Shown: piece by piece, positions 5,660 through 33,491 of the stretch | How the letters are laid out: each line of letters begins with the position of its first letter | Position numbering within the stretch: the first letter of the stretch is position 1 | IMG/VR virus record: IMGVR_UViG_3300032284_000390 | Coordinates: 1-42,398 of that record | Source of the DNA: a virus | DNA: 42,398 nt | Direction: 5' to 3' (one strand) | Position numbers and translations under genes: made by a program | Notes under the pieces: model-generated | The model's input: the letters and a program-made list of their open reading frames with translations, nothing else | The model's database searches: none | Told to the model about the DNA's origin: nothing

Positions 5660-7696
5660 TTACTTACTGGTAGCACGATATACGCCATCCCAACGAGATG
5701 GTAGTTCTTGCTTTTCTAATTCATCTATACGCTTTGACATCATATCGTAATATTCTGTTAATTGTCCGTCAAATGATTTTCTAAGCGTTTTCATGGCAAA
5801 TCTAGCACCATCCCAGTCTTGGCTCTGATACAACATTAGAAAATGTCTATGATGCGAGATAGCTGGACCCCAATCACGCCCATTAATTACAGTAAAAACA
5901 TTAACTGCATCGTGCTTGCCCTTGACTGCGATACTATCTAATTGCACAATTGGTATTCGCTTAAACACTAAGTTTGCAGTAGTTGGTCCAAGAATTATAC
6001 GAACACCATAATTTTTACTTTGTCCTTCTAGGCGTGATGCCAGATTAACTCCGTCACCCAAACAGGTATAATCAAAGCGATATACGCTACCCATATTGCC
6101 AACCACCACAGGAGCAGTATTAATGCCAATCCCCATGCCGAAGGCAGGTATTCCTTCTGCTGCGATTTCTTTGTTAAACTCATCTAGTCTCTCCAACATT
6201 TGCATTGCAGTTGATACAGAACGATACGCATGGTCAGCATCATCAAGTGGTGCGTTCCAAAATGCCATTTGAGCATCGCCAATGTATTTGTCGAGAGTTC
6301 CACCGTTGTCAAGAATAGGTTGTGTCATAGCGGTCATATAACGATTCATTATCTTGGTAAGACCCTGAACATCATCGCCATAGTGTTCACTAATAGTAGT
6401 AAACCCACGAACATCACTGAACATAATACTAAGTTCACGAGTTTCACCCCCAAGTCGTAGTAGTTCTGGGTTCTTCTGCAACTTCTCAACCATTGCTGGC
6501 GATAGGTAACTTCCAAATTGTTTCTTTATACGTTGCTTCTGTAAGAACTCACTTACAAACTTAAGTGTATATGCATGTAATGCTACCAATACGATACCAA
6601 CAGTAAATGCGGTTGCGTCGTATAACCACAGATACTGCTCAAACACATAAAAACTAGCAGCAATACCAAACACAGATATGAATACAGTAGCACCAATGCC
6701 AACTATTACCCAACGTGTAAGTGCAATGAGTGCAATACCTGCTAGTAACAGTGCAATGATTTCAATACCATCTGCATAGTCTGGGCGAGATATGTTTACG
6801 CCATTTGCAAGTGTTGCAATTACTGCAGATTGAAGTTCGTGTGGGTTTACTGCACCGATAGGAGTAGGAACTGGGTTTGCAATACCAGCAGCACTGACAC
6901 CAACAACCACAATTGCTCCATCAAAATTATCTGGCATACCAGATAGGCTAACCGACTGTGAACGTTGGCTATAATCAATCCAAACACGGCCAAGATTGTC
7001 AGTAGTGATAGCACCAAACTTTGGAATACGTAATTTCTCTACGCCAAGTTCACTTAATTTAACTTGAAAGGTCGAGTCTCCACTTAACACACGCAGAACC
7101 TCTAGTGATACGCCATCATATAGTTTACCATTGATAGCAGCTACCACTGGCATACGACGATTTACACCGTCAATTTCTGGCAGTGTATTGATAATACCAA
7201 CGCCAGCGGCTGATGACTCTAACTGTGGGATATTAGCAATAATTCCAGGATATGTTACGATACGATCAAGATAGTTACTGTTTACAACAGCAGAACCAAC
7301 TACGTGTGGTTCATTCTTACTGCTGGTAGCAGGAACGTCACCTAGAATTACTGGATTGGTTTTCAATACCTCACTAAGTGCAGCATCACCGCCGCTGCGG
7401 TCAGCTTCTGGCATAAGCACATTGAATACTACAAGGCCAGCATTGCGCTTATAAATGTCAGAAATGATCTGTGCATACACACGACGGTCAAATGGCCACT
7501 GACCATACTTGTCTAGTGCTGCCTCGTCTATATTAACTGTATAGATTGGATTTTGTGTAGGTTCTTTATGTGTAATGAGTGTGTCAAAATAGCGTAGTCG
7601 AACACTTTCAACAAATGTTGGGTCTATGAGGCGGATAGCAATGATAAGGACAAGCGTGATAATTGCTGTCCACGGACTCAACAATATTTTCTTCAT
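5660..7696 (-). CDS. CHASE2-domain class III adenylate/guanylate cyclase
   Basis: The protein has 678 residues. A membrane segment (about 9-22) is followed by an extracytoplasmic CHASE2 sensor domain (about 28-300), three membrane segments (about 310-378) and a class III cyclase domain (about 418-600). The catalytic set is intact: metal-binding Asp428 (MFSDVRGF) and Asp474, Lys470 and Asp542 for base recognition, and Asn551 and Arg555 for the transition state. The Lys-Asp pair favours ATP, so cAMP is the expected product. A helical C-terminal tail (about 610-675) ends in WDGVY. A membrane sensor cyclase in a phage is unusual; it lies downstream of the curlin-FecR genes on the same strand. Confidence 0.9.
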   Translation of the reverse strand: MKKILLSPWTAIITLVLIIAIRLIDPTFVESVRLRYFDTLITHKEPTQNPIYTVNIDEAALDKYGQWPFDRRVYAQIISDIYKRNAGLVVFNVLMPEADRSGGDAALSEVLKTNPVILGDVPATSSKNEPHVVGSAVVNSNYLDRIVTYPGIIANIPQLESSAAGVGIINTLPEIDGVNRRMPVVAAINGKLYDGVSLEVLRVLSGDSTFQVKLSELGVEKLRIPKFGAITTDNLGRVWIDYSQRSQSVSLSGMPDNFDGAIVVVGVSAAGIANPVPTPIGAVNPHELQSAVIATLANGVNISRPDYADGIEIIALLLAGIALIALTRWVIVGIGATVFISVFGIAASFYVFEQYLWLYDATAFTVGIVLVALHAYTLKFVSEFLQKQRIKKQFGSYLSPAMVEKLQKNPELLRLGGETRELSIMFSDVRGFTTISEHYGDDVQGLTKIMNRYMTAMTQPILDNGGTLDKYIGDAQMAFWNAPLDDADHAYRSVSTAMQMLERLDEFNKEIAAEGIPAFGMGIGINTAPVVVGNMGSVYRFDYTCLGDGVNLASRLEGQSKNYGVRIILGPTTANLVFKRIPIVQLDSIAVKGKHDAVNVFTVINGRDWGPAISHHRHFLMLYQSQDWDGARFAMKTLRKSFDGQLTEYYDMMSKRIDELEKQELPSRWDGVYRATSK

Positions 7697-9368: not shown

Positions 9369-9845
9369 TTAATTGCGTATATAACTATATCCGCTACAAG
9401 GCGGAGTGTAACACTGTATAACCATACTGCCAGTGTCTCCTGCTGTTGGATTAGTTTGGACCACAGTTGCACTAACTCCAACACCACTCATACTAAGAGT
9501 GAAACTCTTATCTGGTCCACTCTGTGTAATACTAGCAACACTGTTACTGGTAGAATCAGTCATGGCAACAATCGCACTGTTGTTTCCTGTACCACTTTGA
9601 TTGATAGTTATGCTGTTGTTATTATTGGTTGCTCCTGGAGAACCACCGATATATGCACTCTTTGTTCCAGCACCTATCTGCATAATGCTTAACTCATTAT
9701 AGTCGCCGCTGTTTTTTATGGTGGCGCTCGCATCAGTGGCTGATTGTGTGACACTGATATTATTGCCATTTCCAACTTGGTCTATCCTGACTAAGTTATC
9801 TGCGTATGCTGGGGTGATTAATAGTAGAAATAATAGTTTTTTCAT
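9369..9845 (-). CDS. Curlin-like repeat protein B
   Basis: The 158-residue protein has a Sec signal peptide (cleavage likely after AYA, residue 15) followed by Asn-, Ser-, Thr- and Gly-rich repeats of the curlin kind: VRIDQVGNGNNISVTQ, ELSIMQIGAGT, SITINQSGTGNNS. These match the alternating Gln-x-Gly-x-x-Asn pattern of CsgA and CsgB strands. The C-terminus holds a Cys pair (QCYTPPCSGY), unusual for curlins. It overlaps the FecR-domain gene by ATGA. It is a likely export substrate for the CsgG-type pore upstream and could act as nucleator or major fibre subunit. Confidence 0.75.
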   Translation of the reverse strand: MKKLLFLLLITPAYADNLVRIDQVGNGNNISVTQSATDASATIKNSGDYNELSIMQIGAGTKSAYIGGSPGATNNNNSITINQSGTGNNSAIVAMTDSTSNSVASITQSGPDKSFTLSMSGVGVSATVVQTNPTAGDTGSMVIQCYTPPCSGYSYIRN

Positions 9846-10975
9846 TGACTCTGCTTTATGATTATACTCGTCCCGTTTGGCTGATTAACGATTTGTTTAA
9901 CAGTTACTCCGTCTTGTTGTGTTATCGTAAACGTTGTATTCGCACTCTTATCTATCGTTACTTCTGCATAATCGCCATTTGGTGAGTTACGATACAGTGT
10001 TACTGAATTATTATCTATAATATAATATAATCCCGCTGCCTTATTAATTTTAAAGTTAGGTAGCAGTGAGTTTTCATCGCTTAGTCGGCTGTCTAATAGT
10101 CCACTGTTTAATAGGTCTAGTATATTATATAAAAATGCTTGGTCTAAAAAGTTAATACTCAATCTATCAAGTGGCTCTTCAAGATAATCTGTATTCAATT
10201 CATCAAACTTTAAGAAATCTAAGTCAAGTGCATTACGGTCTAATATACTCTTGTTACGACTAGTGCTAATTTCATCATCACGTTTCTTTGGTGGAGTAAG
10301 GATTAAGAAATTATTGATTTGTGCTTCTGTAAGTTTAAGAATACTTGGCTTGGTGGGATTCAACTCTCGTGCAGAGGTGGCAGTTGCCTGAAATGGCTGG
10401 TCAAGATGCACTGTTCCACCCTCTGTAGTAACGTCAATCTTGCCTGTTTTACAATCTTTGCGAATATCTTTCCATCCAGTAGGGCAACTTGGGAGTAAGA
10501 TAATCAAACTACGACCAAGTTCATCAACTGTCATACTAAAATCTGTACCACGAACACCAATAACAGCAGTAGGTGTTTCTATCTTTACATTTTGTGGATT
10601 ATTCTTGGCAATCTGACCGCTGGCATAACGTGCGGTCCCCATAACAACCTTGAGTCCAAGTTTGCCAGCATCACTGTGCTTAGGGTCATATACGAAGTCA
10701 TCAATAAGAAGTTTACTTTGTTCGGTTACCTGCACCTTAGTGGCATCTTCAAAGGTAATACCTACTCTACCCTGTGCAGTCTGCACAGTGTCATTCATTT
10801 CAACGCCAGTATTAACTGAACTTTCAATAGTTTTTGTATCACGGTGGATTTGTGCGGGACCAGTTTCTTCGGTTACTAATCCCACACTACTCCATGCATT
10901 AGTTGCCAGTAGTGACAGTAATATTATTATTGCTGCCAGTGCTAGTAACCTTGACCGTGCTGTCAATCGTACCAC
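9842..10975 (-). CDS. FecR-domain exported protein
   Basis: The protein has 377 residues with an N-terminal signal sequence (LLALAAIIILLSLLATNAWS) and a FecR domain (about 30-150) seen in TVQTAQGRVGITFEDATKVQV and TPTAVIGVRGTDFSM. FecR domains bind periplasmic partners or relay signals; they often occur beside CHASE2 sensors. The rest is low-complexity, Asp-, Leu- and Asn-rich. The start is GTG with GGGAG nine bases upstream; no ATG occurs until well inside the domain. The first 77 bases overlap the curlin gene in another frame, so the signal peptide is encoded over the end of the curlin repeats. Confidence 0.8.
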   Translation of the reverse strand: MVRLTARSRLLALAAIIILLSLLATNAWSSVGLVTEETGPAQIHRDTKTIESSVNTGVEMNDTVQTAQGRVGITFEDATKVQVTEQSKLLIDDFVYDPKHSDAGKLGLKVVMGTARYASGQIAKNNPQNVKIETPTAVIGVRGTDFSMTVDELGRSLIILLPSCPTGWKDIRKDCKTGKIDVTTEGGTVHLDQPFQATATSARELNPTKPSILKLTEAQINNFLILTPPKKRDDEISTSRNKSILDRNALDLDFLKFDELNTDYLEEPLDRLSINFLDQAFLYNILDLLNSGLLDSRLSDENSLLPNFKINKAAGLYYIIDNNSVTLYRNSPNGDYAEVTIDKSANTTFTITQQDGVTVKQIVNQPNGTSIIIKQSQ

Positions 10976-16533: not shown

Positions 16534-17625
16534 TTAAAATAAATCTACCGATTCCCAAGGCAATCCATCCTTGCCAAAGTGACCGTAATTAGTAGTAGAA
16601 CTATAGATAGGACGGAACAAGTCAAACTTGTTGATAATACCAAGTGGTGTTAAATCAACGTTTTCACGAATCCATTTCGTCAAACCACGACTATCGCCGT
16701 TGCTTTCAACATAGAAACTCATTGGCTGTTGTAGACCAATAGCATACGATACTTGAACAGTTGCCCAATCTGCACGACCACTTGCTACAATATTCTTGGC
16801 AAGATAGCGCATCATGTATGCAGCACTACGGTCAACCTTAGTAGGGTCTTTACCACTAAATGCACCACCACCGTGTGGAGAATAACCACCGTAAGTATCA
16901 ACAATAATCTTACGACCAGTTAGACCAGTATCACCATCAGGCCCACCGATAACAAAGCGTCCAGTAGGATTGATATGAAACTCTGTGCGAGTATCAACCA
17001 AGCGGTCAGGTAGAACGCCACGAATAATTTGTCCTACACGTGAACGAACAACTTCAATATCCAATTCTTCACTGTGTTGTGTACTGCAAACTACCTTATC
17101 AATGCGGAATGGATTACTATCATCATTATATTCAATAGTAATTTGACTCTTGGCATCTGGACCAAGCCACGACTCTCCGCTTTTTCTGGCGGAACTTAGT
17201 GCCTTTACAACTTCGTGACTATAATGAATAGCACTCGGCATGTAGTTTGGTGTTTCATTACTAGCATATCCAAACATTAGTCCTTGGTCACCTGCTCCGA
17301 ATGTATCTGTGCCAAGTGCAATGTCAGCACTCTGACCATGCATTAGATTAAGAATATTTACAGTGCGCCAATCAAACCCACTTTGTTCATAACCGATATC
17401 ACGAATAGTATTAATAACAGTTGCCTCAACCAATTGTGGGTCAAGTTCACCTTTATATTCACCTGCAATAACTACCTGATTTGTAGTAACAAGTGTCTCA
17501 CATGCACAGCGATACGACTTATCCTGTGGTGTCATCATCAAATCCAGAATAGCATCACTGATAGCATCAGCTACTTTATCTGGATGGCCTTCACTTACGC
17601 TTTCGCTTGTAAAAAGATAACTCAA
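16534..17625 (-). CDS. metK: S-adenosylmethionine synthetase
   Basis: This 363-residue protein is a near-full-length MetK (E. coli 384). It carries the ATP and Met site GHPDK (13-17), the hexapeptide GAGDQG (110-115) and the phosphate loop GGGAFSGKD (252-260). It joins methionine and ATP to SAM. The start is TTG with AAGGAAAA upstream; no ATG fits the family N-terminus. It supplies SpeD and the SAM-dependent methyltransferase, and could offset loss of SAM during infection. Confidence 0.95.
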   Translation of the reverse strand: MSYLFTSESVSEGHPDKVADAISDAILDLMMTPQDKSYRCACETLVTTNQVVIAGEYKGELDPQLVEATVINTIRDIGYEQSGFDWRTVNILNLMHGQSADIALGTDTFGAGDQGLMFGYASNETPNYMPSAIHYSHEVVKALSSARKSGESWLGPDAKSQITIEYNDDSNPFRIDKVVCSTQHSEELDIEVVRSRVGQIIRGVLPDRLVDTRTEFHINPTGRFVIGGPDGDTGLTGRKIIVDTYGGYSPHGGGAFSGKDPTKVDRSAAYMMRYLAKNIVASGRADWATVQVSYAIGLQQPMSFYVESNGDSRGLTKWIRENVDLTPLGIINKFDLFRPIYSSTTNYGHFGKDGLPWESVDLF

Positions 17626-17645
17626 TTTATTTTCCTTATGTTAAG

Positions 17646-18668
17646 TTATTTGGTTAGATATTCATAGAGTTTAGTGCTTGCAAGGTTCTTCGCTTTACTC
17701 TCAACTTGGATATCAAAGTCTTCCCAGAACTCACGCACGTAATCGTTGACACGATTATTCCACATGTAATCGCTGTGTGCTCGCATGAACTGTTTCTTAA
17801 CACCACTTTCCATAAGTGCCTGATGGTCAAGATTTACTTCTGGGTCGAGACCCGCTGCAAGCTGCTCACGAGGAAGAGAATAATGCATAGTAGGACGAAC
17901 CCCCCGCCAGCTATCAATGATGCGTTTAGTGCGATCATCGGATCGTGATAAGAATACGCCTTCACGACACCAGTGATGATGTACGTCCAGAACGATAGCA
18001 AGCCTATCAGCAAGCTCAAGCGCAGAATCAATACCATAACTATTCTCCTCATTTTCAATGGTAATCAGGTTACGTGCTTCGGGTGACAGTCGGTCTAAAA
18101 CAGTTCGGATACCCGCTGCTCCCAATCTGCCAGAGATATGGACATTGATTTTAAAACCTTCACTGTGCCATGAAAGGCCGTATCCCATCCATCTTGCAAG
18201 GTCTGTGTGATACTCAAACTCGGCAATTGAGGATTCGACCACATCTGGTCTATCACTGGCAAGTACGCAAAATTGACCAGGATGAAAAGAAAGACGTACA
18301 TTATGAGTACGGGCAGCTTCGCCCACACGCTTAAGTCGTGTTTCAATTTCACGTCTAAGAGATGTATCATTCCAAAAGTAACCAAAATTAGGTTCAGTAT
18401 ATACAGGCAACACATCGCTGCCAAGGCGTACCATCCGTAATGGCTCATCAAGTTCTCCTACACGGTTAACAAGACGTAGCAGTGCATCAGTGTTGTGAAC
18501 CATAATGTCATAAAGTCGCTGTTCGGCGACAGATGTAGTTTGTCGTTTCAACCACGCTACCGTGGTTGTTTGGTTGTTGAAACGCTTGGCATCATCCTTG
18601 GGTTTAAACCCGTCAATCTGGGAAGGATGGTCAAGCCACTTGCAGCAGAAACCGATACGTTTTGTCAT
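17646..18668 (-). CDS. uvsE: UV DNA damage endonuclease (UvsE/UVDE family)
   Basis: From the ATG at 18668 the protein has 340 residues (MTKRIGFCCKWL). It shows the UVDE TIM-barrel signatures: GFCCKWL at the start, NNQTTTVAWLKRQ, RLSFHPGQFCVLASDRPDVV with metal His, TIENEENSYGID, LDVHHHWC and MRAHSDYMW. It nicks DNA 5' to UV dimers and needs divalent metal. The ATG at 18686 would lie upstream of the -10 box, so 18668 is preferred; the promoter leaves only a few bases before it, so the message may be leaderless. Confidence 0.9.
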   Translation of the reverse strand: MTKRIGFCCKWLDHPSQIDGFKPKDDAKRFNNQTTTVAWLKRQTTSVAEQRLYDIMVHNTDALLRLVNRVGELDEPLRMVRLGSDVLPVYTEPNFGYFWNDTSLRREIETRLKRVGEAARTHNVRLSFHPGQFCVLASDRPDVVESSIAEFEYHTDLARWMGYGLSWHSEGFKINVHISGRLGAAGIRTVLDRLSPEARNLITIENEENSYGIDSALELADRLAIVLDVHHHWCREGVFLSRSDDRTKRIIDSWRGVRPTMHYSLPREQLAAGLDPEVNLDHQALMESGVKKQFMRAHSDYMWNNRVNDYVREFWEDFDIQVESKAKNLASTKLYEYLTK

Positions 18669-18671
18669 ATG

Positions 18672-18702
18672 AGTATAATACCACAACTGAAGTATATGTC
18701 AA
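18672..18702 (-). promoter_or_regulatory. Sigma70-type promoter for uvsE
   Basis: TTGACA with TATACT 19 bases on (or TTATAC at 18) on the minus strand. The -35 box overlaps the stop codon of the upstream hydrolase gene and the ATG follows the -10 box by three bases. Confidence 0.5.
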
Positions 18703-19349
18703 GAGAATAATTCGGGAAATAATAGGGCGACGTGGTATTGAAAATCACCACCCAAATATGATTTTATATGTGGCATCATATGCTCTGCCAGTATATTATG
18801 ACCACGCTCGCTAAAATGGTTTGGTCTCATATCTGGGACACTACTATCCCAATTAGGCAAATCTGCTCGACTTAATGCAGTAAATCCACCACGACAATTG
18901 AACCACAATCCATATGATTGATTTATAAAATCTATATCAAATCCAGGCAAATGGATAACTTTGATGCCACGATTTTGCGCTACTCGCTGCATATCATCTA
19001 TTAATAGCTTGTAGGTAGTTTTTGCATAATCTTCATTATACAAATAATAATAATATTGTTCTGCAGCTAACACGACGTTTTTATCCATGTTATCATCATG
19101 ATTAAACGTTTTTAAATGTGGATTAATTGAGTACCGTGGATGATAGAGTCTGGAATATTCGGTATGACAGCAAATTATTACATCGGTTCTATCAATCAGG
19201 TTCATGTATTCTGTATAAATTTTATATTGGCTATGTCCAGAAAATCCACGACAGTCAACTAGAGTTAAACCACATTCCTTCACAATACGTTCGTATACGG
19301 TATTGTCATAACATTGTGCAAAACTGTCGCCTACAATAGCTACACGCAT
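18699..19349 (-). CDS. SGNH/GDSL-type hydrolase
   Basis: The 216-residue protein starts MRVAIVGDSFAQCYD, the GDS block with the nucleophilic Ser, and ends with RPNHFSERGHNILAEHM, which supplies the His of block V. Such enzymes remove or move acyl groups on glycans. It overlaps the carbamoyltransferase gene by one base (TAATG) with AAGGG as ribosome-binding site, so both may decorate the same sugar. Confidence 0.75.
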   Translation of the reverse strand: MRVAIVGDSFAQCYDNTVYERIVKECGLTLVDCRGFSGHSQYKIYTEYMNLIDRTDVIICCHTEYSRLYHPRYSINPHLKTFNHDDNMDKNVVLAAEQYYYYLYNEDYAKTTYKLLIDDMQRVAQNRGIKVIHLPGFDIDFINQSYGLWFNCRGGFTALSRADLPNWDSSVPDMRPNHFSERGHNILAEHMMPHIKSYLGGDFQYHVALLFPELFS

Positions 19350-20794
19350 TAGAACACCCTTATATTATGTAGGTTGCTAAAGTTCATGGCATCACGATAA
19401 TCGTTTACAAGCGGTTCGCCACGTATATTCAGGCTGGTATTCAACAGCATTGGGCAACCAGTTCTACGATACCATTCTTTCAGAATATTCAGAATAATAC
19501 TTGGATTACTAGCATCAACGGTTTGAACACGTGATGTTCCATCCACATGACATATTGCGGGAAACTCATTTGGCTTCTTACACTTGACTGCATACTGCAT
19601 ATAATCATAATTGTCATGATCTATATTAAAATGTTCACGTGCGTGTTCAGTTAATATAACAGGCGCAAATGGTCTAAACTTTTGACGTTGTTTAATACTA
19701 TTAACTCGATCTTTAATATCTGGACCACGTGGATCGGCAAGTAAACTACGATTTCCTAGTGCACGTGGGCCATACTCAGCACGACCATTGGCAATACCAA
19801 CGATCTCACCACGACATAAACAATCAACGACCTCGCCTACATTAATATCATTCTTAATATCATATCCAAGATAAGCATGATTTAATTTTATGTGCTTACG
19901 AGTTTTATACAACACTGCGCCTAAACTTAGTCCAGCATCTCCAGGGTTAGGAGGAACATAAACATTTTTAAAGAACTTGCCATAATGAACAAGATTGTTA
20001 GCAACACAGTTCAGTGCACAACCACCACTTAATACTAGGTTAGAACTTGTCGCATGTTTGGCTGCATACTTAATAATACCTACTAAATATTCTTCGTATA
20101 TAGATTGTGTACTTGCGGCAATATCTACATATCGCCAATCCCTATGTTGTTCTAGTAACCAACGAATACCACGATGCATATTATGCTTAACTTTAAAGTG
20201 TGGTGGATTCCATTCTTCAAATAGCATATTTTTTAATGTATGTGTATGTATTGGTTCGCCGTATGCTGCCATACCCATAAGGATGTATTCTTCTTCATTT
20301 GGTTTTAATTCTATAGCATCTGTCATAGCAGTATAGAACAATCCAATACTATCTGGATATAATTTTCTCCAAATACACCGCATATCATTCCAAATACTAA
20401 TAGTGTCCCACTCGCCTATAGCATCTATCACAATTATAGTAGCATTAGTAAATCCACTAGTATAATATCCAAGTGCAGCATGTGCACCATGGTGTGGAAC
20501 TGTTGTTATTTTAAGATGATCTAGATTGTATTTTTTAAGATAAGTTTTAGGATGTGTGTATATTGGACGCTCACCACTATATAATTTTCGTGTAGCCTTT
20601 AGTAGTGGTCGCTCACTCCATACTATTTCTGTTGGAGTTCCGTAACAATAGCAATCGCCGATTAAATCTACATTTAAATCTTTATCATTTTTTATTCGTG
20701 AATATCGCTCAGCATGAGCAGCAAAGCGTATGTTAGAATTATCGGCAAGAGTAATACTTGCATCATGATTGTTAGCGTTGATTCCTAATAACAT
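19349..20794 (-). CDS. Carbamoyltransferase (NodU/CmcH family)
   Basis: This 481-residue protein contains the family blocks: GINANNHDASITL at the start, HHGAHAALGYYTSGF (metal-binding His), MGMAAYGEP, LVLSGGCALNCVANN, and the YrdC-like C-terminal GRAEYGPRALGNRSLLADPR with RPFAPVIL. NodU-like enzymes put a carbamoyl group on a sugar hydroxyl using carbamoyl phosphate and ATP. It is co-translated with the SGNH hydrolase. The C-terminal part is slightly short but intact. A surface-glycan or virion-glycan target is inferred. Confidence 0.9.
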   Translation of the reverse strand: MLLGINANNHDASITLADNSNIRFAAHAERYSRIKNDKDLNVDLIGDCYCYGTPTEIVWSERPLLKATRKLYSGERPIYTHPKTYLKKYNLDHLKITTVPHHGAHAALGYYTSGFTNATIIVIDAIGEWDTISIWNDMRCIWRKLYPDSIGLFYTAMTDAIELKPNEEEYILMGMAAYGEPIHTHTLKNMLFEEWNPPHFKVKHNMHRGIRWLLEQHRDWRYVDIAASTQSIYEEYLVGIIKYAAKHATSSNLVLSGGCALNCVANNLVHYGKFFKNVYVPPNPGDAGLSLGAVLYKTRKHIKLNHAYLGYDIKNDINVGEVVDCLCRGEIVGIANGRAEYGPRALGNRSLLADPRGPDIKDRVNSIKQRQKFRPFAPVILTEHAREHFNIDHDNYDYMQYAVKCKKPNEFPAICHVDGTSRVQTVDASNPSIILNILKEWYRRTGCPMLLNTSLNIRGEPLVNDYRDAMNFSNLHNIRVF

Positions 20795-23323: not shown

Positions 23324-23352
23324 AATATATGATATTTACGATGCGCTGTCAA
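23324..23352 (-). promoter_or_regulatory. Sigma70-type promoter of the structured RNA
   Basis: The minus strand reads TTGACA, 17-base spacer, TATATT. The -35 box overlaps the stop codon of the gene at 23349. Confidence 0.75.
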
Positions 23353-23933
23353 GAATAATCATATTCCTCATCGTCATCGTATAGTGACTCCCCAACTGCG
23401 ACAGATGCGTTATTGTTATCATACCAATTATAATGCATTTCATTTGGCATAAGAACACGATACTCGCCCTTTCCATACATGGATATTGAAAGCATCGTCA
23501 TATCTTCTTGACTCATGATTTCAGTTATATAAAACCTACTACCACAACCACCGCCTATACTTTTAATAGGACCATGTTTAATATCAAGAGAGCTTAACGT
23601 TTCCATAAGAGATGCACCGTATTTGGTAATGATACGTGTAATACCACGCTCAGCATTACGTAACCGTATTTCATCTGCTTTGGTAAGAACCGTGAGTTTT
23701 GCACAGTTATCTTCACCAATTGTAACCAAGCAATCTTTAAACTTGATTGCACCTTTGGTTCGCACATTATCGGGAGTTTCTTTGGTGGTCCAAGGCAAGT
23801 TAGCTTCTACGTGGTCTACGTAATAAGTTTTACCCTTGGCCATAATAATCCACATTGGAATTGTAGGGTCTTCTAGGTGCTTCTTGTTAAAATGAAACAC
23901 TGCTTCTTTACATGCTATTTCTACCTATGACAT
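23349..23933 (-). CDS. Unknown phage protein with in-frame TAG at codon 3
   Basis: The frame is open to a GTG at 23900 (183 residues), but the better start is the ATG at 23933, with AGGAG nine bases upstream. From there the reading is ATG TCA TAG GTA GAA, continuing in frame into the long frame; codon 3 (23927-23925) is TAG. The GTG has only a weak AAGAAG site. A tRNA with anticodon CTA, able to read TAG, lies 93 bases upstream on the same strand. The protein (MWIIMAKGKTYYVDHVEANL, GGGCGSRFYITEIM, acidic tail) is unknown to me. Its coding status is confident, the start is not. Confidence 0.7.
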
Positions 23934-23971
23934 ATTTCAGTTCTCCTGTTTATATAGTAACCCCACTGTTG

Positions 23972-24006
23972 CGCTATTAGTTAGGGTAAGCGTGTGGGGT
24001 ATTGTT
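23972..24006 (-). other. Hairpin between the CTA tRNA and the TAG-containing gene
   Basis: On the minus strand ACCCCAC and GTGGGGT form a 7-bp stem closing a loop of about 28 bases, between the tRNA and the start of the gene with the early TAG. It might partly end transcription or control translation. Confidence 0.35.
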
Positions 24007-24025
24007 AGTAGTATTTAATAATAGT

Positions 24026-24102
24026 TGGTGCAGCCCATGGGATTTGAACCCATATTGACGGTGTTTTAGAGACACCCGCTTTAACCGTTAAGCTAGGGCT
24101 AC
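24026..24102 (-). tRNA. Suppressor-type tRNA (anticodon CTA, reads TAG)
   Basis: The fold is a complete cloverleaf: acceptor GTAGCCC with GGGCTGC, discriminator A, encoded CCA; D stem GCTT/AAGC; anticodon stem GGTGT/ACACC with loop CTCTAAA; T arm ATGGG-TTCAAAT-CCCAT. The loop gives anticodon CTA, which reads the stop codon TAG, and equals the loop of E. coli supF. The body resembles tRNA-Trp (loop CTCCAAA), from which one change would give CTA. The amino acid carried is unknown. It begins one base after the stop of the upstream gene, so both are on one transcript. Confidence 0.85.
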
Positions 24103-33084: not shown

Positions 33085-33113
33085 ATCTTATACACTAGTA
33101 TTTAGTTTGTCAA
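33085..33113 (-). promoter_or_regulatory. Sigma70-type promoter of the small RNA
   Basis: TTGACA, 17-base spacer, TAAGAT on the minus strand, directly downstream of the tmRNA terminator. Confidence 0.65.
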
Positions 33114-33124
33114 GATTAATTATT

Positions 33125-33163
33125 AAGAAAAAAGTGCAACTTTTCTGTTTCTAGGTAAGTTGC
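33125..33163 (-). terminator. Terminator of the tmRNA gene
   Basis: On the minus strand GCAACTT and AAGTTGC form a 7-bp stem with a 14-base loop, followed by ACTTTTTTCTT. Confidence 0.75.
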
Positions 33164-33455
33164 CAACCCAATGAAATTAAGCTGCTAGAGCCATTTCAAA
33201 TGAGACATTATCGTTGTCTGCGTTTACGTTTTTTGGTTTATAAAGCGACCAACCTACTATCTCCAACAATTCCGTCGCTGCCAATCGATTTCCCATTACA
33301 GGCCCATCAAAGATACACAAAGCCGATAGATTCGAACTATCTTTCCATACGTTTGTTAGACAGCTATGGATACCGTGTCATCGTGTATCTATGGTGGACC
33401 TGACCAGATTCGAACTGGTGTCTTGACCAACTATTACAATTGCTATCAACAATAG
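33164..33455 (-). ncRNA. ssrA: Circularly permuted (two-piece) tmRNA
   Basis: The order on the minus strand is acceptor piece, spacer, coding piece. The acceptor piece ends with T arm ACCAG-TTCGAAT-CTGGT, acceptor CAGGTCC, A and CCA (33392-33419). An 86-base spacer (33391-33306) follows. The coding piece begins GGGCCTG (33305-33299), which pairs with CAGGTCC and gives the G3-U70 alanine identity pair. The tag frame at 33221-33177 reads ADNDNVSFEMALAA then TAA, with the usual ALAA end. tmRNA frees stalled ribosomes and marks the product for ClpXP. Permuted ssrA genes are typical of alphaproteobacteria and some cyanobacteria. Confidence 0.92.
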
Positions 33456-33462
33456 TATATTA

Positions 33463-33491
33463 TTTATAACACGGTATTTTTATTATGTCAA
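33463..33491 (-). promoter_or_regulatory. Sigma70-type promoter of the tmRNA gene
   Basis: The minus strand reads TTGACA, 17-base spacer, TATAAA(TA); the expected start of transcription is near 33455. Confidence 0.8.

Follow-up and report, generated by a model that had tools for sequence, protein, structure and literature searches.

Gene B of the virus analysed here carries an in-frame TAG as its third codon and lies just downstream of a phage tRNA gene with the amber-reading anticodon CUA. We propose that the two very probably form a gate, in which a start-proximal stop codon in a single gene is opened by a dedicated suppressor tRNA of the phage. The parts of this arrangement, their conservation, the reading frame, the linkage of gene and tRNA, and the covariation of stop and anticodon can all be read directly from the genomes compared.

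The virus record, referred to here as the window, is 42,398 bases long, and all parts of the gate are on its minus strand. The tRNA gene (24026–24102) directly adjoins the upstream gene at its stop (24103) and is 92 bases from the ATG of gene B. The original prediction, made from the sequence alone, had described a normal cloverleaf with anticodon CTA, and both ARAGORN and a full-length match to Rfam RF00005 (58.1 bits) agree; the ARAGORN label 'tRNA-Pyl' is based on the anticodon only. The start site likewise reads as predicted, with a ribosome-binding site AGGAG (23943–23947) nine bases 5′ of the ATG (23931–23933), followed by TCA, the TAG (23925–23927) and an open frame (ATG TCA TAG GTA GAA ATA GCA TGT AAA...) that continues until position 23349. 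If the TAG is read, presumably by the CUA tRNA, gene B (23349–23933) encodes 194 amino acids rather than the 183 obtained from the GTG at 23900, the expected gain of 11 residues. Inspection of the sequence reveals no evident ribosome site at this GTG or at the next ATGs. The function of the product is unknown; its N-terminal domain (FHFNKKHLED..PMW..KGxTYYVxHV..PWSTKETPDN..TKG) is followed by a second alpha/beta domain and an acidic tail. Between the tRNA and the ATG is an inverted repeat, ACCCCAC/GTGGGGT (24000–23994 / 23966–23960), which lacks a T run and is possibly a processing or regulatory hairpin. Elsewhere in the window there is a gene for a 678-residue CHASE2 and adenylate/guanylate cyclase protein (5660–7696, minus strand), a signalling enzyme that is unusual in phages, noted together with a FecR-type gene (9842–10975), and a cluster of AdoMet synthetase, UvdE endonuclease and Nol-like carbamoyltransferase genes (16534–20794, minus strand).

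A search of IMG/VR with a profile put the number of relatives at 379, and up to 80 places per scan were analysed in two scans. Among the matches listed, 96 of 107 non-redundant loci with a gene B core have a TAG shortly before the core. Omission of L129, which has a separate ATG after its TAG, leaves 95 loci that form 81 clusters at less than 90% nucleotide identity, drawn from IMG/VR and one isolated Rhizobium phage. Three of the loci examined in the whole analysis (L144, L412 and L418) remain unclassed. The stop at the start-proximal place is TAG in 81 of the 81 clusters and never TAA or TGA, again among the matches listed, which answers in favour of the original prediction the question of what homologues have at codon 3. 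Loci within each family are kin, and the counts for gene B, as for the pth2 gene discussed below, are not fully independent because the sequences in each family are related. Its retention across 81 independent homologous loci shows that the TAG of the window did not arise by chance. No convincing cellular homologue of gene B was found among GTDB species genomes.

The surroundings of the TAG vary. It is codon 3 in all of the closer relatives (L002–L006, 80% over the protein, and L007–L010, about 50%), with N-termini such as MS*VE, MA*IE, MN*IE and MS*IIE (asterisks mark the stop), and lies anywhere from codon 2 to codon 9 in gene B relatives as a whole; the codons between ATG and TAG differ in number and kind, and the TAG is constant. 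In 74 of the 81 clusters the stop is followed by an A. In the isolated Rhizobium phage RHph_I1_18 (171 kb) the site reads MSEFM*NESCREVIFHFNKAHL; it is unannotated, and an annotated tRNA(cta) is directly downstream. In homologues with 42–94% identity the match extends as far as the residue that follows the TAG, and the TAG itself precedes it; a start at the equivalent of GTG 23900, which would have refuted the prediction, is thereby rejected.

Several features indicate that the TAG lies inside a coding sequence. First, the best upstream Shine-Dalgarno sequence and start codon are in frame with the gene B core in 77 of 81 clusters. Second, diversity by codon position over the seven codons after the TAG and before the core (0.22/0.21/0.54) resembles that within the core (0.26/0.17/0.56); the third position is diverse and the first two are not, which places the beginning of protein coding at the TAG. 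With a conserved in-frame stop, coding constraint 3′ of it and an initiator in frame, the locus satisfies one of two criteria for programmed stop-codon readthrough, and we infer, in the absence of protein or ribosome data, that both sides of the TAG are translated as one protein. An ATG, GTG or TTG is present between TAG and core in 41 of 81 loci (mostly GTG or TTG, with ATG in only three), and low-level internal initiation is therefore not excluded. A related alternative, to which we give little credence, is that AUG-NNN-UAG is a leader mini-ORF like the bar-type minigenes of phage lambda, with the protein starting after it by re-initiation at GTG, TTG or ATT, and with the stop acting on ribosomes or through peptidyl-tRNA drop-off, without readthrough. 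Very short start-stop units are indeed a cause of peptidyl-tRNA drop-off, one of the gated genes encodes a peptidyl-tRNA hydrolase, and ATT or GTA is frequent directly after the TAG. However, re-initiation sits poorly with a frame that is kept in 77 of 81 clusters, with protein constraint starting right after the TAG, with units that are two to nine codons long, and with the lack of any consistent start or ribosome site 3′ of the TAG; nor does it fit the agreement of stop type with the encoded suppressor anticodon, or the locus in which the stop is in mid-gene (both described below).

Readthrough by a phage tRNA is further supported by the tRNA genes themselves. A CUA tRNA was identified in the fetched locus of 74 of 81 clusters, using ARAGORN or our own cloverleaf scan, at a median of 413 bases upstream of the gene B core; with one encoded elsewhere in the genome (G007) and two recognised by eye (L043 and L101), the total rises to 77 of 81. 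The four clusters without one are short contigs or unresolved. The tRNA bodies are diverse, mostly 72–78 nt, and the CUA anticodon is kept; the acceptor is often G1C2G3...C70G71C72 with A73 or G73, and the amino acid inserted at the TAG cannot be fixed from such sequences. That the phage tRNA is charged and decodes the gate stop in the cell is an inference that we make with high confidence, although protein and ribosome data are lacking. Two of the CUA tRNAs (L101 5726–5802 and L333 995–1068) have U33 replaced by C (loop CCCTAA), and at L425 (11135–11213) ARAGORN reports a tRNA with the ochre anticodon TTA in addition to the CUA tRNA.

The stop is not restricted to the start of gene B. In L063, B has a plain ATG start and the TAG is at codon 87, followed by a homologous in-frame continuation of 101 amino acids. 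In G006 and G009, B also has a plain ATG, and the TAG is instead in the upstream gene (pth2) for a Pth2-like peptidyl-tRNA hydrolase (MK*IDGKHYCYTFIRSDLP and MA*ITEQTEDKNYCYCFIRTDLP, respectively); L129 similarly has a TAG in the adjacent pth2 (ML*). Jumbo phages in which B is fused behind domain A (Phosso, Atu_ph07 and others) have no stop in B and have one in the nearby pth2, and nearly all such phages with a start-proximal TAG in pth2 have a CUA tRNA; for L093, a 25-kb fragment yielded none. A third group comprises isolated phages without B but with a gated pth2, jumbo phages among them: GAP32 (MAQ*NEKTWIYVFVRTDLP), ME3 (MT*IHENKKHTYVFVRRD), Serratia phage BF (MTH*ND), XbC2 and Kaldavass (both MAH*NE) and Salmonella phage Arash (ML*NKHWIYTF). 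Each encodes a CUA tRNA; that of Arash (L338/L350, 49176–49247) is tRNA-Phe in GenBank and has anticodon CUA by ARAGORN. In a further IMG/VR scan, in which some loci repeat named phages, 22 of 26 pth2 loci have a start-proximal TAG, and for 21 of these 22 the fetched locus also contains a CUA tRNA (in the other, G009, the tRNA is further away); the remainder are one TGA with a UCA tRNA and three that are unclassed or without a stop. The gate is borne by either B or Pth2, one substituting for the other, though the two are not detectably homologous.

Stop and anticodon also change together. TGA takes the place of TAG in four pth2 cases from three lineages (Atu_ph07, L108, L110 and L423), and a UCA tRNA is present in each. 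In Agrobacterium phage Atu_ph07 the gene begins ATG ATT GGC GAA CAC TTT TGA ATT..., with TGA as codon 7, and we found a UCA tRNA, also in the published account (PMC6102473), and no CUA tRNA. L108 (MKHLDHR followed by TGA) and L110 (MNHLDHR followed by TGA) have UCA tRNAs in the same locus, and their TAG-bearing relatives (L095, L096, L098–L100, L105 and L111) have CUA tRNAs; L423 represents a separate branch. No mismatched pair of stop and anticodon was seen among the gated loci examined. Taken with the conservation and the frame, this covariation lends strong support to the recoding of the TAG that had been predicted, albeit without expression data.

The converse relationship is less strict. 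No CUA tRNA was found in the phages RaK2, Munch, SCTP-2, Hallingskeid, phiN3, fENko and Pound, whose pth2 has no stop, but this 'no gate, no tRNA' control is imperfect: Myrna (L403), XacN1 (L356) and RAS14 (L372) have a CUA tRNA and a pth2 without a stop, and their tRNA is therefore used elsewhere or unused. G004 (L247) is an exception of the same kind, with a CUA tRNA and a B lacking the TAG, and no gated pth2 or B was found in any of these four. An open reading frame in G004 with a double TAG and 'fused' homologues was rejected as an antisense shadow. A loose scan for Shine-Dalgarno sequence, ATG and stop was too noisy for naming further targets, and did not find one for XacN1.

A different explanation would be that TAG is a sense codon in many genes of these phages, with B and pth2 merely the visible cases. 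Globally recoded phages do carry suppressor tRNAs (PMC11210395, PMC13037316), and of the criteria for code 15 an encoded CUA suppressor tRNA is met; the other, that TAG should occur in many genes and be lost as a terminator, is not. Although none of the 39 called genes in the window ends in TAG, ordinary genes have uninterrupted frames when read with the standard code, and relatives use TAG as a normal terminator, with 4–15% of called genes in the CUA phages ending in it, just as TGA terminates 31–39% of genes in the UCA phages. Depletion of TAG stops as a sign of suppression was not seen across the genomes. Moreover, a strict scan of 10 genomes for Shine-Dalgarno sequence, ATG and stop returned B or pth2 as the conserved cases. 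Global recoding is rejected on these grounds, and the wider reading, mostly refuted, retains only the faintest plausibility. The gate would thus operate within the standard code, and since TAG and TGA still terminate genes, suppression must be tolerated, partial or context-limited.

Only one of the two gated products is recognisable. The gated Pth2-type hydrolases match PF01981 with E values down to 3e-25; against the cut-off of 23 bits, L012 scores 72.9, L095 76.4, L110 89.3 and LR756511 28.4, and the types found in GAP32, ME3, G009 and L129 fall below it at 15–18 bits. Gene B matches no Pfam or PHROG family. Its AlphaFold model, a confident one (pLDDT 88.5, pTM 0.67), has no fold match in the PDB at E ≤ 1e-3, and the structure search returned only an unnamed viral relative (A0A6J7WMG8). 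A relationship of gene B to Pth2 was considered and discarded (hhalign probability 0.1, no Pfam match). Gated genes are easily overlooked. They are unannotated in RHph_I1_18 and Serratia phage BF, and their start is called late in GAP32 and in the Sinorhizobium phage Phosso, where the annotated Pth (L012 1872–2366) begins about 160 bases downstream of ATG-AAG-TAT-TAG; PHROG 34073 is truncated in a similar way, and matches the GAP32 frame only from residue 30.

In the mechanism that we envisage, ribosomes would start at the ATG, reach UAG at codon 3 (codons 2–9 in relatives) and terminate by default, until the CUA tRNA transcribed nearby outcompetes release factor 1 and gene B is made. The B gene or Pth2-A-B operon would be translated only after functional phage tRNA has built up, and gated output would be proportional to the level of this tRNA and to weak termination. 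That the arrangement ties expression to the phage tRNA pool, whether as timing, licence or termination feedback, is inferred with moderate confidence; the time switch suggested in the original prediction remains an inference without expression data. It is also possible, though we hold this only tentatively, that the gate is a feedback sensor and not a timer, with readthrough rising when release factor 1 is weak or suppression strong, and Pth2, perhaps also B, then trimming acylated suppressor tRNA or peptidyl-tRNA; the analogy is with the stop/frameshift loop of prfB (RF2). This is compatible with the main mechanism and rivals it only as to purpose. That one gated product is a Pth2-type hydrolase speaks for such a sensor, as does tmRNA, which is encoded by several gate phages and could rescue ribosomes after readthrough; however, B, for which neither fold nor activity is known, is not detectably homologous to Pth2, and there are no data on levels. 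The window contains a tmRNA gene (33086–33487, minus strand, ARAGORN), and tmRNA genes are also present in the gate-bearing L048, L052, L060, L062, W01, G002, G010 and G011; we infer that tmRNA may offset or clear unwanted readthrough products.

Returning to the gate in general, a product that is either B or the translation-acting Pth2 hydrolase points to a function in maintaining or taking over translation. We think it likely that these examples represent a widespread class of switch, in which large phages of standard code keep a single gene or operon with an early stop (Pth2, A, B) closed unless their private suppressor tRNA reads it, with the stop codon and the anticodon co-evolving and the tRNA pool licensing a translation-control protein. 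Such gates explain genes that annotators have missed or truncated, offer a simple genetic test of a phage tRNA as a translation licence, and provide a small natural module for placing expression under tRNA control.

We found no account of a gate that sits near the start of, and is confined to, one gene in the literature searched, which did not cover subscription papers, but there are informative parallels. The RF2 gene prfB has an early in-frame stop passed by programmed frameshifting, such that expression depends on the balance of termination and decoding; the gate shares the early in-frame stop in a gene of translation, but a dedicated tRNA opens it and there is no frameshift. An in-frame TAG that is present in few genes and linked to a CUA tRNA is also a feature of pyrrolysine genes (mtmB and others). 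In contrast, the gate TAG is start-proximal and not catalytic, the tRNA bodies are ordinary and varied, and there are opal/UCA versions; the window tRNA has ordinary arms and conforms to the general tRNA model, a comparison of the tRNA body only, without a search for PylRS. A further parallel is offered by the jumbo phages XacN1 (PMC5852040), Atu_ph07 (PMC6102473) and RsoM2USA (PMC8504454), reported with orphan suppressor tRNAs (CUA, and UCA in Atu_ph07). Reading through TAG-ended genes did not lead the XacN1 authors to a target (PMC5852040), and the authors of the other two reports pointed to the general abundance of the stop (PMC6102473, PMC8504454). No target is identified for XacN1 and RsoM2USA, whereas conserved targets are supplied here for Atu_ph07, GAP32, ME3, Phosso and others, and because these are start-proximal, gene callers drop or truncate the gene. 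Finally, globally recoded phages (crAss-like, Lak and others using code 15 or 4) also read a stop with a phage suppressor tRNA in a standard-code host. The papers describing them deal with genome-wide reassignment (PMC11210395, PMC13037316), and their suppressor tRNAs have been proposed to regulate lytic genes (Borges 2022, as cited in PMC11210395). The gate phages differ in using the standard code with TAG still a terminator, and the gate itself consists of a single stop, close to the initiation codon of a single gene or operon and conserved across divergent phages. Recoding need not, then, span a whole genome.
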